33,201 nucleotides of DNA from a virus, in IMG/VR virus record IMGVR_UViG_3300035701_000163, positions 1 to 33,201 of that record; one strand, written 5' to 3'. Position 1 is the stretch's first letter, and every line of letters begins with the position of its first letter. Positions 2,017-22,303 of this stretch are shown here, one piece after another. Both the position numbers and the translations under genes were made by a program. The notes beneath the pieces were generated by a model. The model worked only from the letters and a program-made list of their open reading frames with translations. It was not told the DNA's origin and searched no databases.

Positions 2017-3236
2017 ATCTTCTCCTTCATTTTTAAAACTGGATGTCCTGGTTTGCCTACATTCTCAACAACCCTAGCCATTTTTAAAACTCTGATAGCT
2101 TCATAGAACTGTGCCTCACCTAAGTGTAACCCACGGTAAACTCTTTTCATTAAATCCTCCTCAGACATCTCTCCAAATTGCTTTAAAAGATCTTGAATGT
2201 CTTGAACTAAGGACATTCTTGGGTTTGTAGTTAACCTCTCAATCCTTGGATCGGTTTCTATCATTAAAGTATTAACTATTTGTTGGGCAAGTTTAAAGTC
2301 CTCTTGATTGATATGCATCTTATCTTCACTTAAAGCTAATAGCATACTTATCCTTAAGATCTGCTCTGCCTCACGTTCTTGGTAGGCATCCTTCTGAACA
2401 TCTCCACTAGGTTTTAAGTTTTCATAATACTCTTTATAGTAAGATGCACATTCTTTAGTCCAACCTATCTCTCCCTGCAGACCTTGCTTCTCTCTCAAAC
2501 CTCTTACGATCTCATCCCAACCTTTAGATATAGTCTTCTTAGGGAATGCTCTTCTTTTAAAGTAATTAGCAGGCATTTCACATAAGACAAATCTAGACAT
2601 GAACCCACCTGTGAAGGAATCTTCAGGTAGCATCTTCTGAAGCCAATCTGGAGTTGAGCCACCTAAGATTGAAATGCAGATGTTTTTAAGTGTATTCCTC
2701 CCACGCATAATAGTCTCAACAGCCCATTCCTCCCTAAAGTCATAAAGGTCAGTTATGAGACTGACTAGTCCCGCGTTGTACTGAGCTTTTCCAAAGAAGA
2801 CACTTAACTCAGGAGCTTTGATAATACCAGTAGCATCCCTCGGGCCTATTTGTATCTTTTCTTTAGTACTTAAAGGTTCACTTAAAGCCTTTACAAGTGA
2901 CTCTGGGGTTAGTTTATCTGCTAAGATACGAACCTCAGGACAAGCCTGGTAGAGGCAATTAAGAGCGGCGTTTATAGTAGAAGTTTTATGCCCCCTACCA
3001 GGTGGTGCGAGGAGGATTACCCAGATGTTTGGAAACAGTTTAGGTAGAAGTTCTTCACTGCCGCGGTAGATCCATACCTTGTTGTTTATAGTAGCACCTA
3101 AGACACTGCATGCTGAGAAGAACTTAAACCTAATACAGGCTTCAAGGTCTTTCATGAAAGAGACATACTCACCTAACCAACCTGTAGTCGGGAGTATCTC
3201 TTGTAAAGGATCATAGTCAATTAGGTTATCTTTCAT
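2013..3236 (-). CDS. DUF3987-like primase/helicase-type ATPase
   Basis: 407 residues. A P-loop-like segment at residues 77-86 reads LAPPGRGHKT, a Walker A variant with His where the usual Gly before Lys-Thr stands. Further on, an SILGGSTPDWL segment followed by GGFMSRFVLCE resembles the sensor-like part of DUF3987/YfjI-type RecA-fold ATPases that serve as helicase or primase-helicase in phages. No primase (TOPRIM or AEP) domain is visible. It sits directly after queC (4-bp ATGA overlap) and before the HTH gene, in the same unit as the DNA polymerase, which fits a replication role. The C-terminal 60 residues look like a winged-helix segment (EEDLMKRVYRGLHLGEAQFY). The fold assignment is moderately sure; the helicase activity is inference. 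Confidence 0.6.
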   Translation of the reverse strand: MKDNLIDYDPLQEILPTTGWLGEYVSFMKDLEACIRFKFFSACSVLGATINNKVWIYRGSEELLPKLFPNIWVILLAPPGRGHKTSTINAALNCLYQACPEVRILADKLTPESLVKALSEPLSTKEKIQIGPRDATGIIKAPELSVFFGKAQYNAGLVSLITDLYDFREEWAVETIMRGRNTLKNICISILGGSTPDWLQKMLPEDSFTGGFMSRFVLCEMPANYFKRRAFPKKTISKGWDEIVRGLREKQGLQGEIGWTKECASYYKEYYENLKPSGDVQKDAYQEREAEQILRISMLLALSEDKMHINQEDFKLAQQIVNTLMIETDPRIERLTTNPRMSLVQDIQDLLKQFGEMSEEDLMKRVYRGLHLGEAQFYEAIRVLKMARVVENVGKPGHPVLKMKEKI

Positions 3237-3922
3237 TCTTTCTCCGTTAAGTCAAATTCATTATAAGCTCTTAGCATTAATGGATCTTGCAAACCAGCTT
3301 CTTTAAAACCTTTAGCTCTTAAGATACATGCTGGGCAGGTTCCACAAGGGGGATACTCTCCTAAGTAACAGGTATGGGTTAAACTCAAAGCTTCAACTGC
3401 ATGAGGGGATTCCCATATAAGGTGGATACTCTGCGCTTTGGTTAGGTACATTAATGGTGTTAGGATTTCTAAATCATAATTCATACCATCTGATAATACA
3501 GCCCCAAGTGTTGAGATCACACCCCTACGGCAGTCTGGATACCCAGAATAATCAGTTTGGCACATTCCAGCTATGATAGTAGTTATATTTTTAGTATAAG
3601 CATACATAGCTGCTATAGTTAAGAATAATAAATTCCTACCTGGGAGGAAAGATGCAGGTAGGTCTGTGTTTAAAGGATGCTCCTTACTTTCAGTTTTAGT
3701 TAACAAACTTGAGACTGAAATGTCTTTAATAAATGGAATCTTTAAAAGTATTCTATCTACTTCTAAAAGTTTAGCTATCCTTTCACCTGCCTCAAGTTCT
3801 AAGTTATGGATCTGGTCGTAATCAAAAGAGATACATTCAACCTTTTTGTAATACGACTTAGCCCAAAGTAAGCATGAAGTTGAATCTTGCCCACCACTGA
3901 ATAATACTAAAGCTCTTGTCAT
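3233..3922 (-). CDS. queC: 7-cyano-7-deazaguanine (preQ0) synthase QueC
   Basis: 229 residues, normal length for the family. QueC converts 7-carboxy-7-deazaguanine to preQ0 with ATP and ammonia. The PP-loop ATP-binding motif SGGQDS is at residues 9-14, the family segment FLPGRNL at about 92-98, and DYSGYPDCR at 124-132. Four zinc-binding cysteines are seen at 185, 193, 196 and 199 (HTCY, then CGTCPAC), so the protein looks intact. It follows the polymerase gene with a 4-bp overlap; a GGAGG site lies inside the polymerase 3' end about 10 bp before the ATG. It is separated from queE, folE and queD by the polymerase and the DpdA-like gene but is in the same transcription unit, so all should be expressed together. 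Confidence 0.96.
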   Translation of the reverse strand: MTRALVLFSGGQDSTSCLLWAKSYYKKVECISFDYDQIHNLELEAGERIAKLLEVDRILLKIPFIKDISVSSLLTKTESKEHPLNTDLPASFLPGRNLLFLTIAAMYAYTKNITTIIAGMCQTDYSGYPDCRRGVISTLGAVLSDGMNYDLEILTPLMYLTKAQSIHLIWESPHAVEALSLTHTCYLGEYPPCGTCPACILRAKGFKEAGLQDPLMLRAYNEFDLTEKE

Positions 3923-6132
3923 AACTTCATTACCTCCATTTCATACCAATTCTCTCCTGTTTTAATCTCAACAGGAAAGGAGTTATTAACCTCGGGAATG
4001 TAACTTTCCATTACCTCTTTTAACTTCCTAGCGTTTTTTACTACATCCTTCTTACTTGAATGGATTACTATTTCATCATGTACCTGCAGTCTTAAATCTA
4101 ACTTAGCTTCATAGTAGCATTTATTTAACTGGGTTAAAGTTACATCTGAAGCAGTACTTTGTACTGGTGCATTTAATGCTTGTGGGTAACTTGTTATATA
4201 ACGACGTCTACCAAATGGAGTATCTGTATACCCTCTTTTAGTAAAGTCCTCTCTACGGTCTGAAAAGTATTGGTTTAAACCTGCTACATCTAAATAGATA
4301 TTTTGCCATGTCTTTGCAGTATCTACTGGAACACTATGGGTTATGGCAATAGTTCTCGCACTTAACCCATACCCAGTTCCAAATACTAATGACTTAGCTA
4401 TCATTCTATGTTTTTCCTGTAATCTTTCTGGGAGATAAGGTCTCACAGCTGCATCGACTAACCCATGTATGTCTTGCCCACTTTTTAAAATCTCTAAAAG
4501 AGGTGGGCATGGACCTAAAAGGGCTACAACCCAAAGTTCTAATTGTTTAAAATCTCCGGAGATTAAGATATCATCTGAAGTATCCGGGGTGTAAATAACT
4601 CTAAAGGGTTTAGGGACATTCTGTAAATTAGGATTTTCCGATGATAAACGACCTGTACCTGTGCCTTCGATGTTGTATTGGGTATGTATCCTATTGTTGA
4701 TTAAACGTTCATAAACACCTTTTAAGAACGTTCCTGCACCCTTCGTGAGGTCACGATAGTCAAGAATTTGTTGTATTAGTTCTGACTCTGTATGTCCCCT
4801 TTTTATTAAACTCTCAAGTTCAGTACGGTCAGTTTTATCTATCTTAAAGTAATGCTTTACCTGCAAAGGTGAGGCAGGGTTTAAGTTATACTTCTCACTT
4901 AACTCTTTTGAAATGCTTTCTGCAACTGGGATTGCCTGGGCGTACATTAAAGCTAATCTATTAACATCTACATTAACCCCCTTAACTTCCATAGAGTTAA
5001 TAGCTTCTATAAGAGGAACTAAGAGAGTTCTTTGTAACTCTTTTTGCCTTAAGGTTAAGAGTTGATTCTGGGCTTCCATTACCTGATAAGTAGTAACATT
5101 ATCCCAACAGCAGAATTCAAGCATCTTATCCTTACTCATTGAAGAGACATCCTTCATCTCCTTCTTAGTAGGTTTATATGGCTGTATCTGAGTGTAGGTT
5201 GCTCTTAAGTGGTCAAGGTTCTTAGGCATATCAGAGTTTAAGATCTGCTCAGCAAGTCGGGTGTCAAATACCATACCTTGTACTTTAATCCCCATTGACA
5301 CATCTAAGACCTTACAGTCATAAGATCCATTCTGTGCTACTTTTGGTATCTTAGGATCTTCTAACCACTCTTTAACTAACTCAATACGGTTATCATTCTC
5401 GATGAAGTAAACAGCCATTGCTGAGTCCTTCTCTTTGGAGAAGCCTATACCTAAGACCTTTGCAGTAAAAGGATCTAAGCCCGTAGTCTCAATATCAAAG
5501 GAGGTTACTGAAGTCCACGCAGGGTAGAGGTATAGTTTAAGATCTTCATAACTAGGATCTAGGGTAAAGTCATACTCCTCCCTCTTCGGTACGCCATTTA
5601 GGAAAAACTTATGCACTAGGTTTAAATCATTAACAGCTACATTAACCCACTGCCTTTGCCTCATAACAAAAGAAGGGTGGAGGAGACACAAAACCTGGCA
5701 CTCATGTTGATATACATCTAACAAGGGATGAAACGACCCACGGAGGGACATAGGCCCTTCATACCCTGTAAGGGCGTACATGGCAGGCCCTCCAAAGGCT
5801 AGTATCAATTGAGGCTTAAGGTCTTGTATCTCCTCAAAAAGATGACGGAAGCAACATTTAACCTCATGTGAGGTAGGTGCACGGTCATTACCACGACCAT
5901 CATCTGGGGGTTTACATTGAACAAGGTTAGTCTGTGGTAATTGGTTTTTATAAAGACCTGATTGCTTCATCAAGGAGTAAAGCATCTTGCCTGCACCTCC
6001 AGTGAAGGGAATTCCAGTTATAACTTCAACCTTACCTGGAGCTTGACCCACTAAGAGACAGGGGTATTGAAAGGAGGTAGGGAGGAATATCTTTACAGTA
6101 GTTCTATCTAAAGTGCACTCTTCGCAGTTCAT
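3919..6132 (-). CDS. Uracil-DNA glycosylase-like domain fused to family A DNA polymerase
   Basis: 737 residues from the ATG at 6132, chosen because a GAGG site lies 9 bp upstream; the ATG at 6141 has no room for one. Residues 1-180 resemble family 4/5 uracil-DNA glycosylase: GQAPG at 29-33, PFTGGAG at 42-48, HPS at 152-154, and cysteines 3, 6, 73 and 93 placed as in the family's iron-sulfur cluster. A 3'-5' exonuclease follows with DIE (213-215), an NGSYD motif and a final YxxxD-like CCWDNVTTY. The polymerase part has motif A GDFKQLEL (about 526-533), motif B RMIAKSLVFGTGYG (about 576-589) and motif C HDE (685-687), so it should be active. Motif A has Lys for the usual Ser and Trp after ELE for the usual Arg. 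It is the phage replicase; the glycosylase may scan for uracil or be only structural. Confidence 0.93.
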   Translation of the reverse strand: MNCEECTLDRTTVKIFLPTSFQYPCLLVGQAPGKVEVITGIPFTGGAGKMLYSLMKQSGLYKNQLPQTNLVQCKPPDDGRGNDRAPTSHEVKCCFRHLFEEIQDLKPQLILAFGGPAMYALTGYEGPMSLRGSFHPLLDVYQHECQVLCLLHPSFVMRQRQWVNVAVNDLNLVHKFFLNGVPKREEYDFTLDPSYEDLKLYLYPAWTSVTSFDIETTGLDPFTAKVLGIGFSKEKDSAMAVYFIENDNRIELVKEWLEDPKIPKVAQNGSYDCKVLDVSMGIKVQGMVFDTRLAEQILNSDMPKNLDHLRATYTQIQPYKPTKKEMKDVSSMSKDKMLEFCCWDNVTTYQVMEAQNQLLTLRQKELQRTLLVPLIEAINSMEVKGVNVDVNRLALMYAQAIPVAESISKELSEKYNLNPASPLQVKHYFKIDKTDRTELESLIKRGHTESELIQQILDYRDLTKGAGTFLKGVYERLINNRIHTQYNIEGTGTGRLSSENPNLQNVPKPFRVIYTPDTSDDILISGDFKQLELWVVALLGPCPPLLEILKSGQDIHGLVDAAVRPYLPERLQEKHRMIAKSLVFGTGYGLSARTIAITHSVPVDTAKTWQNIYLDVAGLNQYFSDRREDFTKRGYTDTPFGRRRYITSYPQALNAPVQSTASDVTLTQLNKCYYEAKLDLRLQVHDEIVIHSSKKDVVKNARKLKEVMESYIPEVNNSFPVEIKTGENWYEMEVMKL

Positions 6133-6149
6133 CTTTATCATCCTCTTTT

Positions 6150-6317
6150 TTAACTTTTTAATGCTGTTGTAATCTTTTCTGCTTCCCCGTAAAGATGCTG
6201 TGCCCTCTCATTTAAGAGGCGGCAATAGCAAGCCATTGCCATTGAAGCAACTGCTTCTTTTAAAATCCCTTCCTGCTCGATAATTGTATCAATCTCTTCT
6301 TGGGTGTAATCTGGCAT
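6150..6317 (-). CDS. Small hypothetical protein, 55 aa
   Basis: A short gene starting MPDYTQEEIDTIIEQEG. An AAGGA site lies in the 3' end of the upstream gene, whose stop is 1 bp before this ATG. The product is acidic at the N-terminus and helical throughout, with two cysteines in a CYC motif near residue 31 and no membrane segment. It lies immediately before the polymerase gene, 17 bp from that start. No family was recognised. The tight coupling on both sides and the good ribosome-binding site are the evidence that it is real. Confidence 0.6.
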   Translation of the reverse strand: MPDYTQEEIDTIIEQEGILKEAVASMAMACYCRLLNERAQHLYGEAEKITTALKS

Positions 6318-6318
6318 T

Positions 6319-6618
6319 TTACTTCTGTCCTTCCTGCAGTACGATTACTGCTGCTGATAGATAAACTACTGCATCAAGAAGTTCATTTATAGCTCCTTCT
6401 CGATCCAACCGACGGGTTTCTTTAATCTTCTTCCTTGCTTGAAAAAGTGCAGGGGAGATGGAATCAAAGATTCTTAACTCTTGGCAGATATCCTGCTGCT
6501 CGAACGGGAGGTCATCTGCATGCCGCTCCTTACCTTTACCTTTTGCTGCTCTGTTAAAAGCTTGATCCAAAACAAAACTTAAACTGTCATACGGTTCCTT
6601 TTGCATCTGAGCTGTCAT
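6319..6618 (-). CDS. Hypothetical helical protein, 99 aa
   Basis: The start at 6618 (MTAQMQKEPYDS) was chosen over an in-frame ATG at 6672 because a perfect AAGGAGG lies 6 bp upstream of it. The product is all-helical; the C-terminal part ELLDAVVYLSAAVIVLQ is faintly like the last helix of MazG-type NTP pyrophosphohydrolases, but the metal-binding ExxE/ExxD pattern is not clear, so no function is assigned. It overlaps the 3' end of the DpdA-like gene by 32 bp, a deep overlap suggesting coupled translation, and sits between the nucleic-acid-modification genes and the polymerase. Confidence 0.65.
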   Translation of the reverse strand: MTAQMQKEPYDSLSFVLDQAFNRAAKGKGKERHADDLPFEQQDICQELRIFDSISPALFQARKKIKETRRLDREGAINELLDAVVYLSAAVIVLQEGQK

Positions 6619-7348
6619 TACTTTCCTCCTTTTGGTTTGCTTTAAAGATAATATTAATATTATCCTTAGCAAGTTTTATTTGTTTTTTGCTTAACCTCAG
6701 GTCAAAGAATTCGGGGATAGTATCAATATGATAACACCTCTCTTTAACCCACTCTTTTATACTTATACCTTTAACTGCTAGTTTTATAGGCATTGAAGTA
6801 TCACAGGATTTTGCCTGGTACTTAACAGGTTCATTTAAAGTGTTAAGACCTAGGAAGTGACTACCTCTAAGATATCTTTTAGTTTCTTTAGTGTAACCGT
6901 AACCGTAACCTTCTAAAGAAGGTTGACCTGTGTACTTAGGACGGAATTCATAAGGAATAGCTATGTTAAGAATCCCTTCTCTTTCAAAAGTTAAGAAGTG
7001 CATTGGGTTGCGGGCTATTAAGAATAATTTACTTGGGTTTATCTTAGAAGCCATTTGGTTAAAGATAGTTAAGTACTTAACTTCTGTCCAAGTATCATCA
7101 TCTGGGCAGATTACATAATCAGCATTTATCTCCTCTGAGATGCTTAGCATGTCCTTAACTGGAGTTGCAACCTTTAACTCATTATAGGAGTTATCTAAGG
7201 TTATCTTTAGACCTGAGTCTTTCATATCTCTTAAGTACTTTAAGTACCTCTTATCCCTGCAGAGAAAGGATAAAGCAAAGATATAATCCTGCTCCTCATT
7301 AAAGTCATTTAAGTTATCAAGTGGTACTTCAAATGAAAATCCGTTCAT
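6587..7348 (-). CDS. dpdA: DpdA-like (TGT-family) DNA 7-deazaguanine transglycosylase
   Basis: 253 residues. DpdA enzymes are relatives of tRNA-guanine transglycosylase that swap guanine in DNA for a preQ base. Seen here: LDN at 51-53, the strand-plus-acidic motif YVICPDDD at 78-85, a Gly/Tyr-rich loop near 147-152, HFLGL at 164-168 and KSCDTSMP at 180-187. D183, in a D-x-x-x-P setting, matches the place of the TGT nucleophile (FDCVxPTR in bacterial TGT). The protein is shorter than tRNA TGTs (about 370 aa) and lacks their C-terminal zinc site. It lies 14 bp from queF, inside the preQ gene cluster, with GGGAGGG 6 bp before its ATG. The TIM-barrel reading is from motifs and context; tRNA rather than DNA as substrate is not excluded. 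Confidence 0.75.
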   Translation of the reverse strand: MNGFSFEVPLDNLNDFNEEQDYIFALSFLCRDKRYLKYLRDMKDSGLKITLDNSYNELKVATPVKDMLSISEEINADYVICPDDDTWTEVKYLTIFNQMASKINPSKLFLIARNPMHFLTFEREGILNIAIPYEFRPKYTGQPSLEGYGYGYTKETKRYLRGSHFLGLNTLNEPVKYQAKSCDTSMPIKLAVKGISIKEWVKERCYHIDTIPEFFDLRLSKKQIKLAKDNINIIFKANQKEESNDSSDAKGTV

Positions 7349-7362
7349 GTGTAACCCTCCCT

Positions 7363-7734
7363 TTATGCATAAGCCGTTGAGTGTATTTTTATTCCACCCC
7401 TTGAGGCAGATTCTACTTCTACTTCTACTTTAACCTTTAAGATATTACAAAGGTCTTTTGCTATCATAGCTGATAAAGTTTCTGTGAAAGTTCCATACAT
7501 TCTAAATGAGCCTAAGTAGAGTTTTAAACTTTTAGATTCCACACAAACTTTCTCAGGTGTGTAATTTATCTTCACAGTGTGGTAATCAGGTTGGTGTGTA
7601 AGAGGACATAAAGAGGTTACCTCACTTACCTCTAAGTAAACATACTTTACATATGGAGGTTTAAGGAAGGTATCTAATATCTTCCAATCTGGAGCTTTAA
7701 AGTTAAATTCTTTCTTTGCTTTAAGATGTTTCAT
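7363..7734 (-). CDS. queF: QueF-like preQ0 reductase (T-fold)
   Basis: 123 residues, shorter than the roughly 165-aa single-domain bacterial QueF. QueF reduces the nitrile of preQ0 to the amine of preQ1 with NADPH. Visible are EVTSLCPLTHQPDY (nucleophile C43, acid D50), the QueF signature VESKSLK at 65-71 (E66), SFRMYGTFTE at 76-85 and SRGGIKI at 111-117. The residue before E85 is Thr84, where bacterial QueF has His (FHE), an odd change in an otherwise conserved site. The signature motif argues against the archaeal QueF-L amidinotransferase, which by my recollection lacks it. It starts 1 bp after queE, with GGAG in the queE 3' end. It implies that preQ1, not preQ0, is the end base. Confidence 0.9.
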   Translation of the reverse strand: MKHLKAKKEFNFKAPDWKILDTFLKPPYVKYVYLEVSEVTSLCPLTHQPDYHTVKINYTPEKVCVESKSLKLYLGSFRMYGTFTETLSAMIAKDLCNILKVKVEVEVESASRGGIKIHSTAYA

Positions 7735-7735
7735 T

Positions 7736-8299
7736 TTACCTTTCTCCTATTAGTTTATGTACCTGAATACTTAATCTAACTCCAGGATGTTTTTTAACAT
7801 ACTTTATTGCTCTATCTGTGTAGATTTGATAAGTACTTAAAGGCTGTAAAGATACTCGAGGATGTCTTTTACGAAAAAAATCTACCCTCTCCTCCCACCC
7901 CTCAGGTCCACAGAGTACCTTTATTTCTGAGGCCCTTAAGATGTTAAGATTTATATCTATCTCTTTAGGTGAGATGCAAATATAATCAAAATTAAAGCCT
8001 TCAGGTAGAGGTAGGGTTCCATTAGTTTCAAGATGCTTGTAGAAAAAACCTAAAAGGTTAAGAAGTTTACTTAAGTCTTGTAGTAGGGGTTCTCCTCCAG
8101 TTATACAAACGTGCTGAGAAGGATTTTTACACACTTCTTTCATAATATCTTCTTCAGCCATTAGGGTGTACTCTTGATGCTTTGTATCACAAAAGGCGCA
8201 GTTTAAGTTGCATCCACTTAAACGAATGAAAGTCATAGCCCTACCTGTGTGCAGGCCCTCCCCTTGGATTGAGTAAAAAATCTCATTAACCTTTAACAT
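7736..8299 (-). CDS. queE: 7-carboxy-7-deazaguanine synthase QueE (radical SAM)
   Basis: 187 residues, slightly short for the family. QueE rearranges 6-carboxytetrahydropterin to 7-carboxy-7-deazaguanine with S-adenosylmethionine and a 4Fe-4S cluster. The N-terminal substrate motif FYSIQGEG is at 8-15, the cluster motif CNLNCAFC gives cysteines 30, 34 and 37, and the SAM-contact motif TGGEP is at 67-71; ETNGT and a KVLCGP segment follow. Everything needed for activity is present. An AAAGGAGAAGG site precedes the ATG, and the leader carries a 13-bp hairpin. It lies between folE/queD and queF in the leftward unit. Confidence 0.96.
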   Translation of the reverse strand: MLKVNEIFYSIQGEGLHTGRAMTFIRLSGCNLNCAFCDTKHQEYTLMAEEDIMKEVCKNPSQHVCITGGEPLLQDLSKLLNLLGFFYKHLETNGTLPLPEGFNFDYICISPKEIDINLNILRASEIKVLCGPEGWEERVDFFRKRHPRVSLQPLSTYQIYTDRAIKYVKKHPGVRLSIQVHKLIGER

Positions 8300-8321
8300 A
8301 CCTTCTCCTTTATTTAAAATA

Positions 8322-8364
8322 GGTACTACGGGTGTTGGAGGACAAATCTTTCACCCGTAGTACC
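8322..8364 (-). promoter_or_regulatory. 13-bp perfect hairpin in the queE leader
   Basis: The arms GGTACTACGGGTG (8322-8334) and CACCCGTAGTACC (8352-8364) pair perfectly around a 17-nt loop. On the transcribed (minus) strand the hairpin ends 22 nt before the queE ATG and the loop carries UCCUCC, complementary to part of the queE ribosome-binding site. The downstream run is AU-rich but not a U-tract and the loop is large, so a simple terminator is less likely than an RNA processing or translation-control element. A similar hairpin lies at 11317-11360. Confidence 0.55.
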
Positions 8365-8370
8365 AGAACC

Positions 8371-8388
8371 TTAACCCTAAAGGGTTAA
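8371..8388. repeat. Short palindrome at the folE stop codon
   Basis: TTAACCCT (8371-8378) and AGGGTTAA (8381-8388) form an 8-bp inverted repeat with a 2-bp centre, spanning the folE stop. With so small a loop it is more likely a protein-binding palindrome, or one arm of a larger structure with the neighbouring hairpin, than a terminator. Confidence 0.4.
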
Positions 8389-8918
8389 AGTGATAAGAAC
8401 TCCTCCCGGCAACTTTGTTCTTTTAAAAAGCACCCACGCATGCCAGTTGAGACTGCAGTGGTGTTCTCACTCTGCACTCCTCTCATCCTCATGCAAAGAT
8501 GCTCACCTATAACTACACAACCACAACCCTTTGGTTTTACCCCTTCTTCAAGTTCTTTTAAAATCAAAGCTGGGATATCCTCCTGCAGGGGTAATAAAGA
8601 CATAACCCAATCTGCTAACCTTGCTAGTTTACTTAGACCTAAAACCCTCTCTTCTGGGATGTAACCTATTTTAAAGGTGTACTTCACAGGCAGGAGGTGA
8701 TGTGGGCAAAGAGACCAAGCTACATAATCTTTAATTAAAATCATACTTGAAGTATCTCTTAAAGGGAAAGTAGTCATTACTGGTTTAAGTCTAAAGATAA
8801 GGTCTTCAAGAGTTTGTGTAAAACGCCTGGGTGTGTCTTCAAAGTTCTCTCCTGTTAAACAGTAACCGTTAAGAAGTTCTTCTATTAATTTTTGTGCTGG
8901 GGGAGTTATGATGCCCAT
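8385..8918 (-). CDS. folE: GTP cyclohydrolase I FolE
   Basis: 177 residues from the ATG at 8918, which has AAGGAGG 9 bp upstream; an in-frame TTG at 8927 directly abuts that site and is too close. FolE opens GTP to dihydroneopterin triphosphate, the entry step of preQ synthesis. The zinc and active-site motifs are clear: CPHHLLP (71-77; usually CEHHLLP, so Glu to Pro next to the zinc Cys), GLSKLAR at about 94-100, and GEHLCMRMRGV (138-148, with H140 and C142), then STGMRG. The Glu-to-Pro change is the only oddity. It overlaps the queD 3' end by 13 bp and is followed by an 85-bp gap holding two inverted repeats before queE. A phage copy presumably boosts preQ0 supply beyond the host pathway. 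Confidence 0.95.
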   Translation of the reverse strand: MGIITPPAQKLIEELLNGYCLTGENFEDTPRRFTQTLEDLIFRLKPVMTTFPLRDTSSMILIKDYVAWSLCPHHLLPVKYTFKIGYIPEERVLGLSKLARLADWVMSLLPLQEDIPALILKELEEGVKPKGCGCVVIGEHLCMRMRGVQSENTTAVSTGMRGCFLKEQSCREEFLSL

Positions 8919-9259
8919 CTGGCCCAACCTCCTTTGCCTTCTTGTAGTTGTAGTTGATACAGCTTAACTTCTTTGGGGAGAAGATTATTAATCATCTGTG
9001 CTAGTAAGGATATTAAGCCTTCACAAGTAGGAGTGTGCATCCAGTTGTCATTTAACATCCCGTGGTCAAATTTTATCACTACCTGATTTACTATATCTCC
9101 TAGCAGATGAAGGTCCATGACCATATTAGTACCTGAATCAATCTCACCTTCTACTTCTACATCCAAAGTGTAGGTATGCCCGTGTAGGTTCTTACACTTA
9201 CCTTTATGATGTGGTAAGTAGTGCGCCGCGTCAAAGTAAAATCTCTTTCCTATTATCAT
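8906..9259 (-). CDS. queD: 6-carboxy-5,6,7,8-tetrahydropterin synthase QueD
   Basis: 117 residues, the usual length. QueD turns dihydroneopterin triphosphate into 6-carboxytetrahydropterin. Zinc ligands H13 (FDAAH), H26 and H28 (LHGH) and the catalytic C22 (GKC) are all present, with DH at 65-66, PTCE at 77-80 and a late Glu (E107) as expected for the T-fold pterin site. AAGGAGG lies 5 bp before the ATG and overlaps the end of the upstream 57-aa gene. It is the first enzyme gene of the preQ cluster to be transcribed. Confidence 0.95.
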   Translation of the reverse strand: MIIGKRFYFDAAHYLPHHKGKCKNLHGHTYTLDVEVEGEIDSGTNMVMDLHLLGDIVNQVVIKFDHGMLNDNWMHTPTCEGLISLLAQMINNLLPKEVKLYQLQLQEGKGGWARWAS

Positions 9260-10495: not shown

Positions 10496-10547
10496 GCCCA
10501 ACAAGGGCAATCCAGCCGATGCGCTCCGGTTGATTTCTGCGTTATGT
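10496..10547 (-). mobile_element. attC-like recombination site A (integron cassette type)
   Basis: On the minus strand it runs from ACATAAC (R''-like, containing the stop codon of the RNA ligase gene, 10541-10547) to GTTGGGC (R', exact GTTRRRY match, 10496-10502). Between them AATCAACCG can pair with CGGCTGGATT with one mismatch and a bulged C, around a loop GAGCGCAT, as the folded bottom strand of an attC does. Length 52 bp, near the short end for attC. Recognition is by eye. Confidence 0.5.
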
Positions 10548-11081
10548 CTGCATACACTTCGGCACTTCGTCCTTTTCGATTGTCTTTTTAAAGAGGTATC
10601 CGCCAGCGGTGTGAAATATTACAATACCTTCCGGCTTCATAAATCCTTGCACGGCATGACTTCCGTTTTTTTGCAAGTCGGCAAGGCAACTCTGCACCGT
10701 ATTTGTGTCAAACATTCCACGGAATAAAGTTGGCACAACATTGCAACATGCTGGCCGTTCTTCATCCCACCGATGAACATTAAAAAGGGAGAACCGTTTT
10801 TCGCCTTTTTGCAATCCATATCCTCGTTGAATACCACTTCCCCACCATTCGCCAAAATGCCTACCTGCGCCGAGTTTCATCAGATCATCTTTATTATCGT
10901 ATGCCCATCTTGCAAATCCGTGGTTGTCCTGTTCTGGCGTAATCCACCTAGTCCGTGAACCGACAAGGAATTCTCCGGCTTCACCAATGTAAATACAGCC
11001 GTTAGTTCCATCAATTTTTTCCGTGATGACACATTCTCTTGATAGTCTTACTATTTTTGCGAACTCAATAAATTCCATCAT
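10542..11081 (-). CDS. RNA ligase family protein (small nucleotidyltransferase)
   Basis: 179 residues. Covalent nucleotidyltransferase motifs are in order: KIDGTNG at 22-28 (K22 would take AMP), GEWWGSGIQ at 77-85, EGIVIF at 151-156 and FKKT at 164-167. The family (RNA ligase, T4 Rnl2/DRB0094-like) seals RNA nicks; this one is short, with no C-terminal domain, like many phage stand-alone ligases. GAGGAGAGA lies before the ATG. Its stop codon falls inside attC-like site A, and by hand its G+C is about 43-45% over four sequence lines, a little above neighbours (35-42%), so it may be acquired. A tRNA-repair role against anticodon nucleases is plausible but unproven. Confidence 0.85.
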   Translation of the reverse strand: MMEFIEFAKIVRLSRECVITEKIDGTNGCIYIGEAGEFLVGSRTRWITPEQDNHGFARWAYDNKDDLMKLGAGRHFGEWWGSGIQRGYGLQKGEKRFSLFNVHRWDEERPACCNVVPTLFRGMFDTNTVQSCLADLQKNGSHAVQGFMKPEGIVIFHTAGGYLFKKTIEKDEVPKCMQT

Positions 11082-17331: not shown

Positions 17332-17607
17332 CAGTATATTACAATCAGTATATCACAATCAGTATATCACAATCAGGATATCAGTATATCAGTATATTAC
17401 AATCAGTAAATCAGTAAATCAGTAAATCAGTAAATCAGGCTTTCAGGATATCAGGATATCAGGATATCAGTATATCAGGCTTTCAGTATATCAGTATATC
17501 AAGTATATCAAGTATATCAGGATATCAGGATATCAGTATATCAGTATATCAGGCTTTTACAATCAGGATATCAGGATATTACAATCAGGCTTTCAGGATT
17601 TTACAAT
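17332..17607 (+). repeat. Array of 29 direct octamer repeats with hexamer spacers
   Basis: From 17332 the sequence parses completely into octamers: CAGTATAT (10), CAGGATAT (8), CAGTAAAT (4), CAGGCTTT (4), a 9-mer CAAGTATAT (2) and CAGGATTT (1), with the hexamer YACAAT inserted seven times. All units point the same way. Units run in blocks (four CAGTAAAT in a row at 17404-17435; three CAGGATAT at 17444-17467). Minus-strand TGA in nearly every unit and plus-strand TAA in the CAGTAAAT units argue against a repeat protein. It ends about 110 bp before the terS promoter. A packaging, partition or replication-control site is possible; none is shown. Confidence 0.75.
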
Positions 17608-21265: not shown

Positions 21266-22303
21266 ATGGCAAGTATTTTAATCTTAAGTAATACGTATGA
21301 AGGAAGCCTTCTAGGTTTGAGATTAAGTCAAGAAGGACATATCTGCAAGATGTATACAAAAGACCCAGGATTGAAAGTTGTATTAAAAAGTTTGAAGCAC
21401 CTTACATTAATACAAGACCCAACCCGCCTCTTAGAGCAGTTTGACCTCGTGATACAGGTAGGTGCAGGTCTAGGTGAACTTTCAGAAGAGTGTAAGGATA
21501 AAGGTAAAACCGTACTAGGTGGAACCTTTAATGATAGGTTAGAAGAAGATGAAAGTTACTCAAATTCAGTTGTGAGTATGTTATTAAAAAACCCTTTAAA
21601 GGTTCCAGACACACCACCTCTTCCTATCTCCATTACAGGATGGTTTAACCAGGAGGAGTTCACTCTGTTTAATTATTCTTTTAACTATACTAAGTTCCTG
21701 GAACATGACCGTGGGGTTGATAAGAACTCGGGTTCTGTTGTTTGGATAGGTAAGGATAGAGATAAACTTATCTTTGAGACACTTCTTAAATTAACTCCTC
21801 TACTGCAGAAGGTAAAGTACCTAGGACCTATAACAATGAATGTAATCTGCTTTCAAGAGGAGAAGATCTTCTTAAGTTTCAATACTTTCATAACTCCTAC
21901 CTTCTTCCCTTACCTAGAGTTATTAAAATGCAGCACTTGGGACCTTTTATGGAAATGTACTCAACTTAAACAGGAAGTAAGTACAAGAGAGCAGGACGTA
22001 GCACTCTCCGTGGTTTTAAGCCTTCCACCTTATCCTTATAACTTTAACTTAGAGATAAGAGAGACTGAAAGCTACTTAAACGTCCCTGAACCTGCAAAGA
22101 GTCATACCCACCTCCTTCCAGAGGCTTATGGATTCATCGGTTGCATTACTTCAAGAGGTGAAGGGTCAAACGAAGCACGTCGTCGCTTATACAGAACTAT
22201 AAACAACATAGTATTAAACCAAACTGTACAGTACCGCTCAGATATAGGTTATGGAGTTGAAGAAAGGATAAACCAACTTAAAAAGTGGGAGTGGTTAAGT
22301 TAA
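21266..22303 (+). CDS. PurD-like ATP-grasp protein, probably divergent
   Basis: 345 residues. The N-terminus (ILILSNTYEGSLLGLRLSQE) is a Rossmann-like strand-turn-helix as in glycinamide ribonucleotide synthetase. EHDRGVDKNSGSVVW (146-160), YLGPITMNVI (185-194) and the end YRSDIG (323-328) plus RINQLKKWEWL match PurD landmarks. Where PurD has FN-x-R-F-G-D-P-E, this protein has FNTFITPTFF, so the metal-binding GDPE is lost and activity as a ligase is doubtful. It sits between lysozyme and portal-side genes, an odd place for a purine enzyme, and may be a structural or DNA-modification protein reusing the fold. Confidence 0.6.
   Translation: MASILILSNTYEGSLLGLRLSQEGHICKMYTKDPGLKVVLKSLKHLTLIQDPTRLLEQFDLVIQVGAGLGELSEECKDKGKTVLGGTFNDRLEEDESYSNSVVSMLLKNPLKVPDTPPLPISITGWFNQEEFTLFNYSFNYTKFLEHDRGVDKNSGSVVWIGKDRDKLIFETLLKLTPLLQKVKYLGPITMNVICFQEEKIFLSFNTFITPTFFPYLELLKCSTWDLLWKCTQLKQEVSTREQDVALSVVLSLPPYPYNFNLEIRETESYLNVPEPAKSHTHLLPEAYGFIGCITSRGEGSNEARRRLYRTINNIVLNQTVQYRSDIGYGVEERINQLKKWEWLS

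Follow-up and report, generated by a model that had tools for sequence, protein, structure and literature searches.

A preQ1-type base in DNA is a known disguise against bacterial restriction enzymes, and the order of the pathway from FolE to QueF is also understood from queuosine synthesis. In this pathway the steps from FolE to QueC lead to preQ0, QueF leads on to preQ1, and DpdA inserts the base (PMC6884629). For Streptococcus phage Dp-1, LC-MS of virion DNA detected dPreQ1 and no dG+, and the authors allow that preQ0 is reduced either as the free base or on the DNA (Hutinet et al., 2019, PMC6884629). The set of six functions is not new, as it is also found in the phages Funsized, Mufasa8, R26L, Pan1, phi3ST:2 and Dp-1.

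Here, a window of 33,201 nucleotides, i.e. the whole stretch of DNA that was analyzed (IMG/VR record IMGVR_UViG_3300035701_000163), was compared with these systems. FolE, QueD, QueE, QueC, QueF and DpdA are encoded in both Dp-1 and the window, whereby dPreQ1 was measured in Dp-1 and is predicted for the window. Dp-1 differs by a longer, classical DpdA (PHROG 887), by an additional protein annotated as QueT and by an uninterrupted arrangement of its genes as a single block. Mycobacterium phage Funsized and Arthrobacter phage Mufasa8 harbor the six functions in one cluster, but with a DpdA of the classical type and in another gene order. Flavobacterium phage immuto encodes one of the closest annotated relatives of the DpdA-like protein (25% identity), accompanied by QueD, QueE, FolE and QueF. 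Unlike the window, immuto has a longer QueF, a MazG-type protein, a PurN-like formyltransferase adjoining DpdA and no QueC in the stretch shown.

To assess frequency, viral contigs were scanned with a QueF alignment, and 80 of 313 related places were kept and analyzed with function profiles built in this analysis. All six functions were detected within the fetched stretch of 42 of the 80 contigs, 34 of them with a classical and eight with a short DpdA, the window being the ninth with a short one. This gene set is frequent, and less unusual than an earlier note on this DNA had implied. Single-sequence queries with DpdA, the polymerase and QueF yielded no relatives in the viral contigs, and alignments were needed. 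At one locus (L043, 3005-6109), QueF, a Vut_1-type transporter (PF02592, a family including YhhQ) and a short DpdA were found with no QueC, QueD or QueE in the stretch, which looks like salvage of an imported precursor. L044, L051 and L057 are similar in gene content, the transporter having been checked in L043 only.

Organization of the gene cluster

The earlier note had placed six genes for a preQ1-type DNA modification within positions 3233-9259, and all six were located there on the minus strand (Table 1). Their order on this strand is QueD-FolE-QueE-QueF-DpdA, followed by a small ORF, a fusion of uracil-DNA glycosylase (UDG) and DNA polymerase I, and then QueC. The set is thus a broken block, in which the small ORF and the polymerase fusion separate DpdA from QueC. 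Several pairs of neighboring genes overlap, and purine-rich sequences resembling ribosome binding sites precede the que genes and DpdA.

Table 1. Features of the modification gene cluster in the window.
Feature	Position	Strand	Evidence
QueC, 7-cyano-7-deazaguanine synthase, 229 aa	3233..3922	-	PF06508 E 1.3e-62; TIGR00364 202 bits vs cut-off 150
UDG-exonuclease-DNA polymerase I fusion (replication, not base synthesis)	3919..6141	-	PF03167, PF01612, PF00476
Small conserved phage protein, function not assigned	6319..6618 (end approximate)	-	PHROG 13898
Short DpdA-type DNA-guanine transglycosylase (predicted), 253 aa	6587..7348	-	Family profile vs TGTs and 7ui4; hhalign to phage DpdAs
QueF, unimodular 7-cyano-7-deazaguanine reductase, 123 aa	7363..7734	-	TIGR03139 93.2 bits vs cut-off 86.9; PDB 4f8b E 7e-17
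QueE	7736..8299	-	TIGR04508 E 5e-29; PHROG QueE-like E 9e-33; CxxxCxxC and TGGEP
FolE, GTP cyclohydrolase I, 180 aa	8385..8927	-	PF01227 E 8.5e-37; CPHH and HLCMRMRG motifs
QueD, 6-carboxytetrahydropterin synthase, 117 aa	8906..9259	-	PF01242 E 2e-28; TIGR03367 91.4 bits vs cut-off 89.25

As judged from matches to Pfam, PHROG and NCBIfam models together with their motifs, FolE, QueD, QueE, QueC and QueF are clear members of their families. The motifs of QueC (SGGQDS, C-x7-CGxCxxC), FolE (CPHH, HxCMxxRG) and QueD (C-x3-HGH) are intact. QueE matched TIGR04508, its best QueE model, with E 5e-29, yet stayed under the curated cut-off of that model; both QueE and FolE score under the NCBIfam equivalog cut-offs and over the Pfam cut-offs for their domains.

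The small ORF between DpdA and the polymerase fusion occupies the slot that holds a formyltransferase in a related record (L037). A role as tailoring enzyme was weighed and rejected: homologues were found in 185 phage records, none of which was seen annotated for base modification, and the ORF is probably outside the modification pathway. The polymerase fusion starts with a family 4 uracil-DNA glycosylase domain, and BLAST matches to other phage polymerases reach into this domain.

A search of the window for a preQ1 riboswitch or other RNA found none, and matches resembling promoters or terminators did not exceed the chance level. An array of 8-base repeats (ATCAGTAT-like) is located at 17342-17600 within a 1.4 kb non-coding divergent region and could be a replication origin or a regulatory array. 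The early module also encodes a short RNA-ligase-like protein of 179 aa (10542-11081).

A probable short DpdA-type transglycosylase

As a single sequence, the DpdA-like protein had no significant match in Pfam, PHROG or NCBIfam. BLAST against phage genomes detected five records at approximately 25% identity; these are immuto phages, in which the protein is annotated as a DNA guanine transglycosylase, and Chryseobacterium phage MA9V-3. FolE is encoded close to the DpdA relatives of immuto, MA9V-3, Youna2, BSP7, phiST and Ahp1, mostly together with QueD and QueE; the relatives of Youna2, BSP7 and phiST are clustered with all three, and that of Ahp1 has FolE nearby. No que gene was found within 6 kb of the relative in a Campylobacter phage.

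As a check on the DpdA assignment, the earlier note had proposed a search against DpdA and TGT profiles. A profile of 20 family members was used for hmmsearch against the PDB, in which guanine transglycosylases came first, led by the Thermotoga TGT 2ash (E 8e-4) and the DNA-guanine transglycosylase 7ui4 (E 0.0018). The 13 best matches were all guanine transglycosylases, with TGTs alone down to E 0.22, and the first unrelated chain followed at E 0.72. With hhalign, the short-DpdA profile aligned at E 1.5e-6 with 12 classical phage DpdAs, among them the 9g and Dp-1 proteins, and at E 7e-5 with a larger, more divergent set. Conserved positions of the short and classical proteins pair up, LDNS with DSGA and S/CxDT/S with SxDS. 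D52 and D183 are invariant in the 20 members and correspond in the alignment to D58 and D217 of the Dp-1 enzyme; from what is known of TGTs, we take this aspartate pair to be catalytic. The CxCxxC motif of tRNA TGTs is missing in short as well as classical phage DpdAs and is therefore no useful criterion here.

Structure prediction from the single sequence reached a pLDDT of 31, and the model used was alignment-based (mean pLDDT 60). VIA-align of this model ranked archaeosine TGT first (Z 11.4, 222 residues aligned), with unrelated barrels up to Z 10.2; the top 42 rows were TGTs, and generic TIM barrels followed about one Z unit behind. The matches listed by Foldseek against the PDB were generic TIM barrels, and TGTs came first once the candidates were re-aligned. 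The earlier note had named membership of an unrelated TIM-barrel family as the outcome that would speak against a DpdA; TGTs ranked best by the family profile and, with a lead of about one Z unit, by structure. Taken together, these comparisons argue that the DpdA-like protein is a remote homologue of guanine transglycosylases. Relatives of the short DpdAs may reportedly be included in a group termed DpdA3.

In the BFVD, the DpdA model weakly matched R4THZ2 (E 0.035), an uncharacterised protein of 387 residues from Haloarcula californiae tailed virus 1, which may represent the transglycosylase in these viruses.

QueF and the predicted modification of the phage DNA

QueF matched the NCBIfam QueF-II equivalog (preQ(1) synthase) with E 5e-19, over the curated cut-off. 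Its motifs SLCPxTxQPD and ESKSLKLY are intact, the latter presumably binding NADPH, and alignments with bacterial and phage QueFs show Cys43, Asp50, ESKSLKLY and Glu85 to be conserved. In one of these alignments the B. subtilis row was entered by hand, and it matches the PDB alignment over the stretch shown. The histidine that commonly precedes the conserved glutamate in the QueF family is Thr84 in the window and a cysteine in Funsized, whereas R26L, Pan1 and Dp-1 have histidine. Catalysis of the window QueF could be altered by this exchange beside the conserved glutamate, although the protein clears the curated family model despite Thr84.

In type, the window QueF corresponds to the bacterial reductases. 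Phage QueF and the archaeosine-type amidinotransferase QueF-L are hard to distinguish by sequence (Hutinet et al., 2019, PMC6884629), and if the protein were a QueF-L the DNA would carry dG+. We regard this as highly improbable, since the NCBIfam preQ1 synthase model is matched over its cut-off, the closest solved structures are bacterial QueFs and ESKSLKLY is intact. Moreover, the Dp-1 homologue is 47% identical over 85%, and Dp-1 carries dPreQ1 and no dG+ (PMC6884629).

Since the five synthesis genes are clear and the DpdA-like protein matches TGTs and DpdAs, dPreQ1 is the best prediction for the modified nucleoside. In the proposed route, FolE, QueD, QueE and QueC would convert GTP to preQ0, and QueF would reduce preQ0 to preQ1 with NADPH, either on the free base or on the DNA, as with Dp-1. 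The DpdA-type transglycosylase would then exchange guanine in the phage DNA for preQ1 rather than preQ0, giving dPreQ1 as the final form, which would confer resistance to restriction enzymes of the host. We consider it likely that the phage makes preQ1 from GTP and that DpdA inserts it into DNA, with dPreQ1 and restriction resistance as the outcome. The preference for dPreQ1 over dPreQ0 in the earlier note is backed by the gene content, namely QueF, and by the Dp-1 precedent (PMC6884629).

Variation of the last steps within the lineage

The window belongs to a lineage defined by relatives of its terminase, portal, capsid, primase and polymerase; the records reach 59 kb, and ten of them were examined. 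In most members the modification genes are flanked by recombination genes (Sak4, PDDEXK nuclease) on one side and by the polymerase on the other, and in the window, L037 and L041 QueC is located between the polymerase and the primase. The IMG/VR records L037, L036 and L041 share the lineage, the DpdA subtype (34-42% identity) and the UDG-polymerase and primase neighbors with the window, and their QueFs are 48-52% identical to its own. L036 and L037 differ from it by an added formyltransferase, and some genes are ordered differently than in the window.

DpdA was present in eight of the ten records. QueC and QueF were either both present (six records: the window, G015, G016, G017, G004 and G018) or, with DpdA kept, both absent (G005 and G006); they always occurred or were missing together, though in several members they are located in two different gaps. 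DpdA is missing from G011 and G012, and the polymerase of G011 comes almost directly after the recombination genes. Because DpdA, the polymerase, the primase and the flanks are all inside the G005 and G006 records, the absence of QueC and QueF is not explained by truncation of the contigs.

Without QueC and QueF, the pathway is expected to end at 7-carboxy-7-deazaguanine in G005 and G006. A base of this type has reportedly been found in phage DNA. These two records also bear on whether the window genes serve as auxiliary metabolic genes for the queuosine pathway of host tRNA, the phage DNA being unmodified. FolE, QueD, QueE, QueC and QueF double as queuosine genes, and such a role was proposed for phages without DpdA (PMC6884629). 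In the window, however, a DpdA-type transglycosylase that aligns with DNA-acting phage DpdAs is encoded beside QueF, and its orthologue is kept in the relatives lacking QueC and QueF, which are themselves unable to supply preQ1 for tRNA. We therefore give the tRNA role very little credence and retain the modification of phage DNA.

The lineage further differs in genes that could act on preQ1. A formyltransferase-like gene adjoins DpdA in only two of the six records with QueC and QueF (G015 and G016). In L036 (5806-6306) and L037 (8118-8672) it directly follows DpdA, an arrangement resembling that of immuto phages. In G004 (the same record as L038; L205), four additional genes lie between QueE and DpdA (L038 6688-9591), encoding a class I methyltransferase, PIG-L-like and SDR-like proteins and a second radical SAM protein of the QueE-like kind, which suggests a further modified preQ1.

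With a formyltransferase in two relatives and a methyltransferase and other enzymes in one, the final base of the window may be other than plain dPreQ1. Several related records measure 41-59 kb, so that the 33 kb record of the window is probably incomplete, and the remainder of the genome could hold another tailoring gene. The final base would then be an elaborated, e.g. formylated or methylated, preQ1, made by an enzyme from the missing part of the genome or from an unrecognised ORF. L036 and L037, with a Formyl_trans_N protein adjoining DpdA, and the enzymes of G004 between QueE and DpdA speak for this, but the window has no formyltransferase match, and L041, a record of 47 kb, combines QueF and DpdA without a formyltransferase. 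We consider an elaborated base an unlikely alternative to dPreQ1.

Among the late genes, an ORF at 21266-22303 encodes a PurD-like protein. Genes of this kind are present across the lineage between the terminase/lysis and portal genes. Compared with the full-length relative in L021 (3349-4620) the window copy is shortened and apparently degenerate. It was evaluated as an enzyme adding an amino acid to preQ1 and discarded: about 75 middle residues are missing relative to L021, the C-terminal acidic motif is altered, and the gene sits in the structural module.

In a 39 kb contig of a Candidatus Syntrophoarchaeum metagenome bin (L206), a capsid protein 66% identical to that of the window was found together with portal and tail relatives. 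No DpdA match was found in this genome. The contig may point to the host or reflect an error of binning.

Phylogenetic comparison

Tree comparisons involved long branches, small sets and several tests, with groups named once the trees had been viewed. The DpdA tree groups the proteins of G005 and G006 with modest support (90/83 in the wider set and 71/75 in the small set), and the polymerase and primase data reject a grouping of these two (p-AU 9e-5 and 2e-4). Conversely, the DpdA data marginally reject the polymerase groupings (p-AU 0.026 and 0.021). As a lead only, this suggests that DpdA was exchanged together with the end of the pathway.

Implications

The gene contents can be read tentatively, at somewhat less than an even chance for the reading as a whole, as an exchangeable 7-deazaguanine end product within one uncultivated phage lineage, with DpdA changing along with the product. 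Under this reading, DpdA with QueC and QueF would yield preQ1, and an added formyltransferase formyl-preQ1. QueC and QueF together with the methyltransferase, the SDR-like and PIG-L-like proteins and the second radical SAM protein would yield another preQ1 derivative, and DpdA without QueC or QueF 7-carboxy-7-deazaguanine. The replication backbone would be common to all. If this is true, the base specificity of DpdA could be read from related enzymes.

The window adds an independent phage lineage that pairs the full preQ1 pathway with a short DpdA. Since the short DpdA was missed by single-sequence scans of Pfam, PHROG and NCBIfam, such systems are probably undercounted. The more interesting part lies in the differing versions of the last steps among the relatives: as these phages differ at the last steps and share the rest, the base specificity of DpdA would be directly testable by swapping orthologues.
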